Shown piece by piece: positions 52,980 to 57,551 of a stretch of 64,000 bases of DNA. The stretch spans positions 4,278,001 through 4,342,000 of the forward strand of contig NZ_RBKU01000001.1 in NCBI RefSeq assembly GCF_003633615.1, in the 5' to 3' direction. Every line of letters starts with the position of its first letter. Positions within the stretch are counted from its first letter, which is position 1. A program made the position numbers and the translations under genes. The notes under the pieces were generated by a model. The model ran no database searches. It was not told the DNA's origin and saw only the letters and a list, made by a program, of their open reading frames with translations. The DNA comes from Mucilaginibacter gracilis. GTDB lineage: Bacteria > Bacteroidota > Bacteroidia > Sphingobacteriales > Sphingobacteriaceae.

Positions 52980-53397
52980 TTGTAATAGCCACCCAAGGGT
53001 GCTATGGGGGTGCGGAGCAATTTCTTAACTTATACGCCTTCCATGTTTGTTTTTACAGGGTTTTCTGTTTTGGTAATCGGGGAAAAAATAATTTTTAGTT
53101 CTGTGTTTTACTTTTCTCAAAACACTTTTTATACTAAAAAGGACACCTTTAATAACCTTGCCAAACTTGTAATGCACACTGTATTTATAGTGTAAAGTTT
53201 TGGAAGTACTTTTTAAAATACTCACCCGAAGCTGATAATCAGTAATTAACAAATGTTGAAAGTGTGGTTTAGCCCGGTTAGTTGTTAAAGTTTTTGTTGC
53301 CCTAAGCCGTATTGTAATTATGGCAACATGTTTGCTTAGGTGTTATCGATTCTGTAATTAACAGATGATATATTTAATACAAACGAAAACACAATTT
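52980..53397. other. Gene-free region
   Basis: About 420 AT-rich bases between ppsA and the outer-membrane gene. A 63-codon frame exists at 53004 but has no start context or composition of a real gene. No hairpin or known RNA recognised. Confidence 0.55.
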
Positions 53398-53940
53398 ATG
53401 AACACTTCAACTAAATGGATCGCATCGGCTGTAACAGCAGTTGCCATCTTTTTCGGATCAAACGTTATGGCGCAAACTAATACCAATCCGGGCGAAACAT
53501 GGCGCTTAGGTATTGGCATTGAAGGCGGCATCCCAACAGGTAACCGCAGCGATTTTTCGAATTTTGCATTGGGCGGAACAGCTAGATTACAATACGATAC
53601 AAAATCGAACATATCGTTAATGCTAACATCGGGTTATTACAACATGTTTGCTAAAAGCCAAACCATTGGCGGTACAAAATATACGCCTAACGATGCTGGC
53701 CTGGTACCCGTTAAAGCAGGTATAAAAGTTTTTGCTACCGAAAACATTTATTTTAGCGGCGAGGCTGGTGCAGGTTTTGAAACCAATTACGCTAAAAACA
53801 CCAAACTTATTGTATCGCCGGGAATAGGTTATGCTAACTACAAAGGCTTAGATATTGGTTTGCGTTACGAAAACTTTTCGGGCCAGAGCGATAGCTACGG
53901 TTTGGTTGGTTTGCGTATAGCTTACGGCTTTAAATTGTAA
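53398..53940 (+). CDS. Small outer-membrane beta-barrel protein
   Basis: 180 residues from the ATG at 53398. Signal peptide (STKWIASAVTAVAIFFGSNVMAQ). The mature part has alternating strands typical of an eight-stranded barrel (GIGIEGGIPTGNRSDFSNFA, SLMLTSGYYNM, IYFSGEAGAGFETNYAKN, GLDIGLRYENFS) and ends in YGFKL. Resembles porin-like OmpA or OprF-barrel proteins of Bacteroidota with no OmpA C-terminal domain. Terminator follows. Confidence 0.85.
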   Translation: MNTSTKWIASAVTAVAIFFGSNVMAQTNTNPGETWRLGIGIEGGIPTGNRSDFSNFALGGTARLQYDTKSNISLMLTSGYYNMFAKSQTIGGTKYTPNDAGLVPVKAGIKVFATENIYFSGEAGAGFETNYAKNTKLIVSPGIGYANYKGLDIGLRYENFSGQSDSYGLVGLRIAYGFKL

Positions 53941-54062: not shown

Positions 54063-57000
54063 ATGAGAAAACTAAATATTTTCGTTCTACAGGTATTTGT
54101 ACTGCTCTTATCACAAATATCAATTGCCCTGGCTCAAAGCCCGCAGCTTACTGTTGATGGCAAAAGCAACAACGGGGTTACACTACAGCAATTAAAAATT
54201 GATGTTGCGGTGTATGGCAATATTAGCCGTACAACCTGGCAAATGACTTTTTATAATTCTACATCGCGCATATTGGAGGGTACTTTAAGTTTTCCGCTTA
54301 AAGACGGGGTGAGCATTAGCCGCTATGCGCTGGATATAAACGGTAAAATGCGCGAAGCCGTACCTGTTGACAGGGGCAAGGGAGCCGTAGTTTTCGAATC
54401 GATTGAACGCCGCAGGGTTGACCCGGGCCTTTTGGAAAAGGTTGAAGGTAATACCTTTCGCACACGCATTTACCCTATAAACCCACACAGCACACGCACA
54501 GTAATTATAGGTTACGAAGAAGAAATACCGTTGGCTGATAACGGGAGCCTTAAATTTACGCTTCCGCTGAATATTAAAGATACGGTTAGTAAGTTTTCGC
54601 TCACAGCATCGGTAATTCAAAGTGCAACGGCTCCGGTTGTTGATGGCGCAAACAGCGACGACCTAAAGTTTGATAACCGCCAAAACACCTACTCGGCATC
54701 CATTAATAAAACTAATTATACGCCCAGCCATTCCCTGTCGTTTTCTATTCCCAAGCCATTGGATGCCAGCGAGGTAATGATACAGGCAAAAGGTAATAAG
54801 TACTACTATTTTATCAATACAGTTTTGCAGCCCAAAACAGTGAGCAAGGTACTTCCGCAACGTATTGGTTTGCTGTGGGATGCTTCATTGAGTGGTGCCA
54901 ACCGGGATAGCCAAAAAGAATTTGCGCTATTGGATGCGTATTTAAAAAAGATAAACAATGCCCAAATTACGCTGGTAACTTTTAGTAATACCGTTTTAAG
55001 CAATAAAACATACACCATAAATAGCGGTAACTGGGCCGCCTTGAAAGCCGACCTGGAACATGTTACCTACGATGGTGCAACTAATTTGGGTAACATTAAT
55101 TTATCGCAATACGCTGTAGATGAGTTTTTATTGATGAGCGACGGGCATCAAACCTTCGGCGAAAAAACGCTGAAACTGATTAATAAACCTGTTTACTGTA
55201 TCAACTCTTCGGCTGTTGCCGATTACAGCAATTTGAAATTAATAGCCCTTAAAACGCATGCCGAATTGATAGATTTAACTAAGGATGACACCGAAAAAGC
55301 CTTAACTATTTTAACCAATCAGTCGTTACATTTTTTAGGGATAAAGCCAGGTGCCGATGTTGAGGAGAATTATCCTTCTTTACCGGTGGCTGTGGGGCGC
55401 GCGTTTTCGGTTGCGGGAGTAACACGGAATCCTAACCAAAAAATTACTTTACAATATGGCTATGGCGATAAAGTAAGTTATGAAAAAGAGGTTACGCTTG
55501 ACCTGGCCGAAAATGCAGTAGAGAACGTGGATGTAGCCAAACTTTGGGCGCAAAAAAAGATAAGCGAACTGGACATAAATTATGATGCCAACCGCCAGGA
55601 TATAGAAGGCTTAGGCAAACGTTTCGGTATTATTACCCGCAATACGTCGCTCATTGTTTTAGAAACTGTTAACGATTACATACAATACGGCATTGAGCCA
55701 CCCGCCGAATTGCAGGCAGAGTATGATAATATTATGAAGCAAAGAGGAACCAGTAATGTTGAGGTTGAACGCGAAAACTTATCGCAGTCGGTTAACATGC
55801 AGGCCGAACTTAGCCGGTGGTGGGATAAGGATTTAACGCCGAAAGAGGTTGTTGTGGCGAGTAAACCTATAGAACACAATATTGCTCCCGGCAGCAGGCC
55901 AACCGGGCGGCCAATACAAATTAGCGGTACCGTATTGGCTAATGATGATAAGCGGCCAATAATTGGGGCGACTGTGCGAATCAGCGGCATTAATACAGGT
56001 GTGATAACTAATGGTAGCGGCCAATTCAGTATTAGCGGAACTCAGAGCTGTACGCTTATTGTATCTGCCCTGAGTTATCAGGCTAAACAAATTACGGTAA
56101 GGCATGGTGCGGTGAGTACGATATTGTTGAATGATGCGCGTAATACTTTAAATGAGGTAGCTGTTGTGGGTTATAGCACAGTGAGAAAAACCAGCGTAAC
56201 AGCTTCGGTACAAGCTATACAGGCAAGCCCGGCGTCGCAAGGTTACTATAAAGCCGAGGATGTGAGTAGTTCGGTGGCTGGTAGGGTATCTGGTTTGTCT
56301 GTAAGTCAGGGCTCCCAAAGCGCACCTATAGTTACCGGAGCACCGGGCGCGGACAATAATAACATTCGCATTCGTGGTACATCAACTTTTGCAGGCAATT
56401 CGGATCCGATTTATATTATTGATGGTGTGGAAGTGAGCGGTTTGCCCAATATCAATCCTAATGATATTGCCTCAATTAAAGTATTAAAAGATGTCAGCGA
56501 AACCGCTATGTACGGTAGCAGGGGAGCAAATGGCGTTGTAATTATAACCAGTAAAAAGGGCAAAGCTGCCCAGGCAAGGGCAAATACTAATGGCGGTAAT
56601 AATACAGATTCGGTTCGGCTGGCGAAGACGGGCGATATTAGTATTGCTTATAATCCGGCGGATGCCGATTATTTAAAAATTATACAAAACGAAGCTAAAA
56701 CGGGCCAATACCAAAAGTATTTAGATTTAAGAGAGACTTTTAGCGCCAACCCGGTTTACTATTTTAACGTAGCCGATTACTTTTTAAAAACCGGCAACAA
56801 AGAGATAGGTATGCGCATACTAAGCAACCTGGCCGAAATGGATTTAGGCAGTTACGAACTGTACAAAATGCTGGGTTATAAATTGAAGCAAATTGGCGAT
56901 TATGAAGGTGAGGTTTTTGCCTTTAAAAAGGTGACCGATTTGCGGCCGATGGACCCACAAAGCTACCGCGATTATGGTTTGGCTTTAGAGGATGCAGGCC

Positions 57001-57551
57001 AGCACCAGCAAGCGTTAAATGTGCTTTATAACGCCATGACCAAGAGTTATACCGCCGATGCCGACCGCCTGTACAATGGTATACAAGAAATATTTTTGCC
57101 CGAAATAAACAGGATAATTGCACTGAATAAAGGCAAACTCAGTACATCGACCGTACAAAAAAATCTGATTAAACCCATGCCGGTTGATATACGCGTGGTG
57201 ATGGACTGGAACATGAATAACACCGATATTGATTTGTGGGTAACCGACCCTAATAACGAGAAATGTTACTACAGCCATAACCGCACCGAAATTGGCGGCC
57301 GCATTTCGCACGATATGACACAGGGTTTTGGCCCCGAACAATTTTTATTAAAGAAAGCTATAAAGGGCACCTACAAAATAGAGATAAACTATTATGGCGA
57401 CAGGCGGGCTACCATTGCCGGGCCAACTACTATAATGGCCGAACTGTTTACGCACTACGGCACTCCGCAGGAAAAAAAAGAGCTTATTGTATTACAAATG
57501 AAAAAGGAAGCAAACGGCACAGTGTACATTGGCGACCTGGATTTTAAGTAG
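54063..57551 (+). CDS. Large exported fusion: VIT, vWA-like, TonB plug, TPR and DUF2135
   Basis: 1162 residues with a signal peptide ([18 protein letters not shown]). Domain order: VIT domain about 30-150 ([20 protein letters not shown]), a vWA-like part about 265-400, CarboxypepD regulatory domain about 622-690 ([20 protein letters not shown]), TonB plug about 700-835 ([54 protein letters not shown]), TPR-like helices about 870-1010 and DUF2135 about 1041-1160 ([19 protein letters not shown]). No beta-barrel is present, so the plug is not in a receptor. VIT and vWA mediate protein contacts in other systems; the plug may be a borrowed beta fold or a contact to TonB. Function unknown. Confidence 0.9.

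Follow-up and report, generated by a model that had tools for sequence, protein, structure and literature searches.

A SusC-Type N-Terminal Extension, TonB Box, and Plug without a Barrel within a VIT-vWA-TPR-DUF2135 Protein of Mucilaginibacter gracilis

We analyzed a window of 64,000 nucleotides from the genome of the soil bacterium Mucilaginibacter gracilis (assembly GCF_003633615.1, contig NZ_RBKU01000001.1, positions 4,278,001 to 4,342,000 of the forward strand; coordinates below are those of this window unless a locus is named) and found that one intact gene encodes a signal peptide, a VIT-vWA unit, the N-terminal half of a SusC transporter, i.e., its N-terminal extension (NTE), TonB box, and plug, and then TPR-like helices and a DUF2135 domain. 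Our leading but still tentative explanation, drawn from sequence comparison, is that the product is a soluble periplasmic protein whose SusC-derived part is a reusable cassette that may dock onto TonB.

Results

Domain Organization of the Protein

The open reading frame starts with ATG and has no internal stops, and the host genome is a single contig of 6.66 Mb. A scan of named genomes placed the closest named relatives in Mucilaginibacter. The features of the gene are as follows:

54063..57551, plus strand: whole gene, VIT-vWA-(NTE-TonB box-plug)-TPR-DUF2135, 1162 aa (open reading frame and orthologues)
54063..54137, plus strand: signal peptide, about aa 1-25, without lipobox (sequence reading; model helix 2-19)
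54165..55736, plus strand: inter-alpha-inhibitor heavy-chain-like unit, aa 35-558, with VIT at 41-151, vWA at about 259-443, and the MIDAS residues DASLS 273-277, T340, and D360 (Pfam, alignment, and structure match to 6fpy, Z 23.5)
55914..56147, plus strand: SusC NTE (CarbopepD_reg_2), aa 618-695 (Pfam, NCBIfam, and 9hfj structure match)
56148..56174, plus strand: TonB box LNEVAVVGY, aa 696-704 (motif counts; located behind the NTE like VDEVVV in Bt1763)
56175..56612, plus strand: SusC-type plug without barrel, aa 705-850 (NCBIfam, orthologues, and solved SusC chains)
56463..56555, plus strand: SusC signature TIGR04057, aa 801-831 (NCBIfam)
56667..57125, plus strand: TPR-like helices, aa 869-1021 (structure-chain matches and model)
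57177..57548, plus strand: beta domain with DUF2135, aa 1039-1162, the Pfam stretch being aa 1099-1146 (Pfam and model)

VIT (77 bits), CarbopepD_reg_2 (PF13715; residues 620-701, 55 bits), and DUF2135 (PF09906; 69.1 bits against a cut-off of 22) were all found over their Pfam cut-offs. The SusC/RagA model TIGR04056 matched residues 618-850 with 209.5 bits (E 1e-61), under its cut-off of 368, and the match covered only positions 1-223 of the 981 of the model; the TIGR04057 signature scored 53 against a cut-off of 46. The Pfam Plug model PF07715 gave no match to this plug, and solved SusC/RagA chains aligned to residues 614-844, the best being 5t3r (E 3e-32). The vWA domain did not appear among the Pfam matches at E ≤ 1 and was supported by the fold match to vWA structures; among the 95 aligned rows covering its MIDAS motif, DxSxS, 94 retained it and the odd one read DVSLG. 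TPR matches stayed under the Pfam cut-offs, and the stretch assigned to them was modeled as a run of helices, where the TPR proteins MamA and CTPR matched. No MG or A2M domain was found in the protein by Pfam at E ≤ 1.

Structure prediction of the whole protein gave a mean pLDDT of 77.5. Residues from about 33 to 559 of the model superposed on heavy chain 1 of inter-alpha-inhibitor, a human blood protein, with a Z of about 23, and residues 616-696 matched the crystal structure of a SusC NTE (9hfj) with an rmsd of 1.2 over 80 residues; the list of structural matches was dominated by vWA rows and has little bearing on the plug and DUF2135. The TonB-box region was predicted to be flexible, with pLDDT < 50 at 693-778, and the first half of the plug to be disordered. 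When the plug was modeled alone, its mean pLDDT was 61 and only the second half was confident; the ten-residue mean over 781-830 was 64-83 in the whole protein and 80-90 in the isolated plug. Beyond the plug, the model showed helices and then the DUF2135 beta domain, with no outer-membrane barrel.

These data agree with the original prediction, which had read this gene as a TonB plug with a complete SusC-like signature, fused to a VIT/vWA module and to TPR and DUF2135 domains, and lacking a beta-barrel: the signature was over its cut-off and the longer SusC model covered the plug, the fusion was confirmed by Pfam and by fold (for vWA and TPR, by fold or helices), and the SusC match stopped before the helices. 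The prediction did not name the TonB box and, made from this one sequence, could not reveal the related cassettes of alpha-2-macroglobulins or the absence, exchange, and variation of the cassette among relatives. Structure prediction and a comparison of homologues had been proposed as checks; the predicted fold supports VIT-vWA and the NTE, and the plug architecture recurred in 29 of 80 named-genome loci. The possibility raised along with the prediction, that the plug is a piece of a frameshifted receptor or of a misread neighboring gene, is ruled out for practical purposes by the uninterrupted reading frame, the one-contig genome, the full plug in the same architecture at those 29 loci, and the purifying selection found in four of five sister pairs.

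Cellular Location

By eye, the N terminus of the protein is a Sec-type signal peptide. A lipobox-like pattern was absent from it, being present in 4 of 98 N-termini, and none of the NCBIfam matches at E ≤ 1 was a type IX sorting model. Since the protein has a signal peptide and no match to a barrel, a lipobox, or a sorting domain, it is likely periplasmic, and the place at the cell surface that had been suggested for it is not borne out. SusD caps the barrel of SusC, and binding of the window protein to SusD is thus unlikely.

Orthologues and the Variable Middle Region

With the C-terminal 303 aa as the query, a strong match (E below 1e-78) was found in 17 of 61 genomes of the genus, the own genome included, and matches at E ≤ 0.001 in 22, the remainder being weak; in the family sample, strong matches (E below 1e-89) were present in 46 of 251 genomes and matches at E ≤ 0.001 in 63. 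The best 80 of 351 relatives from the named-genome scan were analyzed further. The 29 of these with a full plug comprised two Ferruginibacter loci, one Sphingobacteriales record, and 26 of the 32 loci whose identity was 71% or higher (Mucilaginibacter or near kin); among the same 80, loci titled Pedobacter, Empedobacter, Chitinophaga, or Sphingobacterium showed no plug match. In the orthologue alignment, the plug stood at the same place in 31 of 97 proteins; the 97-row counts include the window protein and exclude L096, a partial sequence of 468 aa.

In a first alignment of 40 orthologues and the query, the parts outside the middle had a nearly constant length and the middle was highly variable; L064, L078, and L087 are truncated or divided. 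Middles held zero, one, or two copies of the NTE and a full, partial, or missing plug; in some, the start of the TonB box or of the plug occurred twice. A strict TonB-box pattern was found in 60 of the 97 rows and the first plug helix (LxGRVAGV) in 62, with neither in 23, and shuffled middles gave expectations of 0.045 and 0.01 of 97 rows for the box and the helix, respectively. Outside the middle, the strict box pattern occurred in none of 98 proteins. All 31 plug-bearing rows had a TonB box (relaxed pattern; 29 with the strict one). Of the 66 rows lacking a full plug, 31 had the box by the strict pattern and 39 by the relaxed one. The loci titled Pedobacter (n = 25) carried both strict box and helix in 16 cases, the box only in 1, the helix only in 4, and neither in 4; the forms with box plus helix may have arisen by loss or by separate gain. 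The order of the motifs was altered, by eye, in L147, L180, and L208, and the strict count found one such case.

The original prediction took the plug fold to have been reused as a protein-binding module, perhaps coupled to TonB. That a barrel-less plug is truly reused and maintained is upheld here, and coupling to TonB is plausible, as judged from the box that accompanies every full plug. A plug acting as an interaction domain without TonB, e.g., by plugging or recognizing empty SusC barrels, would suit its second half, predicted to fold by itself; however, the box is kept wherever the plug is, and 17 of the 25 Pedobacter loci have the box (strict pattern) but no plug; we therefore hold this reading to be very unlikely.

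Selection on the Plug and Its Replacement

Among the 31 plug-bearing rows, five sister pairs had a flank dS of at most 1. In four of them, the flank and plug dS were 0.24 and 0.26 (L173/L140; plug dN 0.05), 0.30 and 0.56 (L160/L175; plug dN 0.16), 0.68 and 1.02 (L152/L172; plug dN 0.06), and 0.87 and 1.06 (L145/L144; plug dN 0.30). The plug dN/dS in these pairs was 0.06-0.29, versus 0.05-0.08 for the flanks, and in three of these pairs constraint on the plug was weaker than that on the flanks by a factor of 3-6. Thus, in four of the five sister pairs, the plug is inherited under purifying selection.

The fifth pair (L161/L159) differed: its flanks were 92% identical, with a dS of 0.60, and grouped at 100/100, and its plugs were only 37% identical, with a dS of 2.46 and a dN of 0.67. 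Selection on the protein does not account for the saturation seen at the synonymous sites of the plug, and the plug has thus most likely been replaced in this pair. A free plug tree of 109 rows scattered the orthologue plugs among those of SusC proteins and required 12 changes, of which only 2 were forced by starred branches, in agreement with scattered origins. However, the AU test rejected neither a single plug clade (p 0.087) nor the clades of the flank tree (p 0.25 and 0.11), so that several independent origins of the plug are not established and the case for plug swapping rests on the synonymous sites of L159/L161. Extra constraint on the TonB box of Pedobacter-type proteins was not established, with a dN/dS of 0.15 versus 0.23 for the linker over only 26 codons and four independent pairs.

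Search for Barrel Pieces and SusC Donors

Twenty complete SusC proteins of the own genome served as the reference for the barrel test. The NTE and plug make up 28% of the length of SusC, and 73 of 98 middles matched this part only; in 18 middles the alignments extended somewhat beyond the end of the plug. Matches to the barrel only were three, in 2 of the 98 middles, with E from 3e-4 to 0.01, and one set of shuffled middles gave five matches of any kind. No convincing barrel piece was found in the middles. The own genome gave 78 matches to SusC-type donors, the window gene included and some genes counted twice, and no long DNA match pointed to a recent capture from them, the best being 75% over 103 bases.

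The same data bear on whether the linker simply accepts in-frame SusC pieces, whose retention or loss would then matter little. We regard this as rather unlikely, even though many relatives lack the cassette or have it in partial or duplicated form, the plug is looser than its flanks, and donors are plentiful. A tolerated insert would not be expected to consist almost exclusively of the NTE-TonB box-plug part, nor would its plug be expected to show dN/dS values well under 1, one of them 0.06, in four of the five pairs; moreover, the lack of a long DNA match to the SusC genes of the own genome and the regular presence of NTE and plug in one family of alpha-2-macroglobulins (13 of 13 loci, see below) speak against it.

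The Cassette in Alpha-2-Macroglobulins and Other Proteins

The own genome encodes two alpha-2-macroglobulin (A2M)-like proteins with a Plug domain immediately before the A2M domain, and a survey of 51 genomes of the genus sorted such proteins into three families. In type I (L101:1473-7292, plus strand, in the own genome; L287-L299), the A2M domain was immediately preceded by NTE and plug at every one of the 13 covered loci, 8 of which also gave a TonB-box model match; a 14th locus, L300, is cut. In type II (L102:4085-10309, minus strand, in the own genome; L317-L321), the plug was found in 5 of 5 and an NTE match in none, and the order plug helix, TonB box, plug core was readable in 4 of the 5, with a TonB-box model match in 3. 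Type III (L322-L335 and L342; n = 15, a 16th locus, L336, being a fragment outside this count) was mixed, with NTE and plug in 3 loci, TonB box and plug in 1, NTE without a full plug in 9, and neither in 2, and its SusC pieces occupied the same place as in the other types. Collectively, three A2M families of the genus carry the SusC cassette in whole or in part.

In the 51 genomes, the window gene and type III A2M occurred together in 11, the gene only in 5, the A2M only in 5, and neither in 30 (Fisher p 2e-4), with presence entered by hand and one A2M call based on a fragment. The 42 genomes having the rpoB marker were placed on a tree and the other 9 dropped; these counts were then 7, 4, 5, and 26, and the independent pairs went the same way, about 5 to 1, but not significantly (median p 0.22). 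No co-occurrence with types I and II was seen (p 0.90 and 0.86).

Another protein of the own genome, of 553 aa (L100:5475-7133, minus strand), has a plug before an NTE and then a TonB C-terminal domain (TonB_C); a hydrophobic stretch near its N terminus reads like a membrane anchor. In addition, a 939-aa MG2 protein of this genome (L106:4901-7717, minus strand) terminates in the second half of a plug, and a secreted-looking product of 106 aa (L105:4289-4606, plus strand) contains little beyond a divergent plug half.

The bait regions of A2Ms lie about directly before the A2M domain, which is where the cassette of the A2Ms is found. By one published description, bait regions are disordered for the most part, and it is their cleavage that sets off trapping (PMC4498604). 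The cassette could then be a decoy that imitates the periplasmic face of SusC and catches whatever attacks or exploits SusC plugs, such as proteases or bacteriocins, its variability reflecting an arms race. The strong variability of the middle, the one likely plug replacement, the rearranged motifs of type II and of a few orthologues, and the predicted disorder of the first plug half would fit. However, the plug is inherited under purifying selection in four of five sister pairs, the window protein has no match to an A2M domain, and we know of no protease or toxin aimed at the plug in these bacteria; we thus consider a decoy possible but rather unlikely.

Complement C3 belongs to the A2M superfamily. 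Heavy chain 1 of inter-alpha-inhibitor is described as binding C3 through its MIDAS (PMC7170535). A bolder scheme would have Bacteroidota possess a TonB-wired periplasmic counterpart of complement, in which the inter-alpha-inhibitor-like MIDAS protein and A2Ms would act together, both using exchangeable SusC-derived cassettes as TonB-coupled baits, and might sense and trap attacks on nutrient receptors. We see it as a long shot: the hints behind it are this MIDAS binding and the co-occurrence with type III A2M, itself a hint only.

Discussion

Possible Docking onto TonB

We prefer docking onto TonB over the other readings because the SusC parts kept here are those on which TonB acts, and because a TonB box accompanies them in a protein that is likely periplasmic. 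The protein has two conserved ends, the VIT-vWA unit and the TPR-DUF2135 unit, bridged by a variable region that holds an inserted, exchangeable NTE-TonB box-plug cassette. As in a SusC receptor, TonB would meet the flexible TonB box with its periplasmic end; the contact could either tether the protein to the Ton machinery or let this machinery pull on it. The vWA MIDAS and the TPR-DUF2135 part would bind a partner, and the purpose, by analogy with A2Ms, might be envelope surveillance or protease control.

Several observations are consistent with such docking: the TonB box accompanies the plug in 31 of 31 rows, the SusC match is nearly confined to the NTE-TonB box-plug part, the plug is under purifying selection in four of the five pairs, the box region is predicted to be flexible, the cassette recurs in type I A2Ms, and the 553-aa protein joins plug and NTE to TonB_C. 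The TonB box of the SusC protein Bt1763, VDEVVV, comes right after the NTE, and growth on its substrate is reported to depend on it; a SusC NTE solved by NMR has a flexible Ton box (PMC7782687). A role of the vWA domain in force transduction is not far-fetched, since another study proposes that membrane-tethered vWA proteins are coupled to TolQ-like motors (PMC12204202).

Against docking, 23 of the 97 rows carry neither strict motif, and the family can therefore do without them. In Pedobacter, selection holds the TonB-box codons barely more tightly than the surrounding linker. The looser constraint on the plug than on the flanks in three of four pairs means that some of the plug may be tolerated baggage. 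Moreover, when 12 reading frames of the window were compared with 40 orthologue loci, some of them short, the neighborhood did not recur at E ≤ 1e-15 except for two distant matches to a regulator-like gene, so that nothing nearby points to TonB. Just upstream, 53365-53940 (plus strand) reads as a small putative outer-membrane beta-barrel protein with a weak OMP_b-brl match (E 0.017); its product had no match beside the fetched orthologues at E ≤ 1e-15.

Comparison with Known Systems

SusC/RagA transporters share with the window protein the NTE, TonB box, and plug over residues 614-850, but the latter lacks the barrel and has other domains fused; on reading, its neighbors are the small putative outer-membrane protein and a prolyl oligopeptidase-like peptidase, and no SusD was recognized by reading. 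With inter-alpha-inhibitor heavy chain 1, it shares the fold over about residues 33-559, with the MIDAS kept, whereas it is bacterial, only 14-16% identical, and has in addition the SusC cassette, TPR, and DUF2135. YfaP/DUF2135 proteins of A2M clusters have the DUF2135 domain in common with it; the window protein, in contrast, has many extra domains, and no A2M gene was read nearby among the window reading frames. In E. coli, yfaP (DUF2135) is separated by yfaQ from a pseudogene of yfaS, which we take to be an A2M relative. The cassette-bearing A2Ms of the genus, arranged as NTE-TonB box-plug in type I, as a rearranged TonB box-plug without NTE in type II, and variably in type III, have MG and A2M domains in place of VIT-vWA-DUF2135.

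Our searches of the open-licence PMC literature yielded no account of VIT-vWA or A2M proteins that contain a SusC plug lacking its barrel. Plugs and TonB boxes have been treated as parts of transporters; in the present data, several, probably periplasmic, protein families contain the energy-coupling half of SusC as a module. If the cassette binds TonB, then TonB would have clients other than transporters, and there would be a concrete lead on what periplasmic A2Ms and YfaP-type proteins do. Counts of SusC proteins based on plug or signature models include non-transporters.

Two further receptor loci were observed in the own genome. At L099:4643-6157 (plus strand), a 505-aa SusC frame is followed by further frames and, judged by the frame lengths, looks broken, and at L103:2779-5182 (minus strand), a receptor split into frames of 247 and 612 aa looks broken as well.
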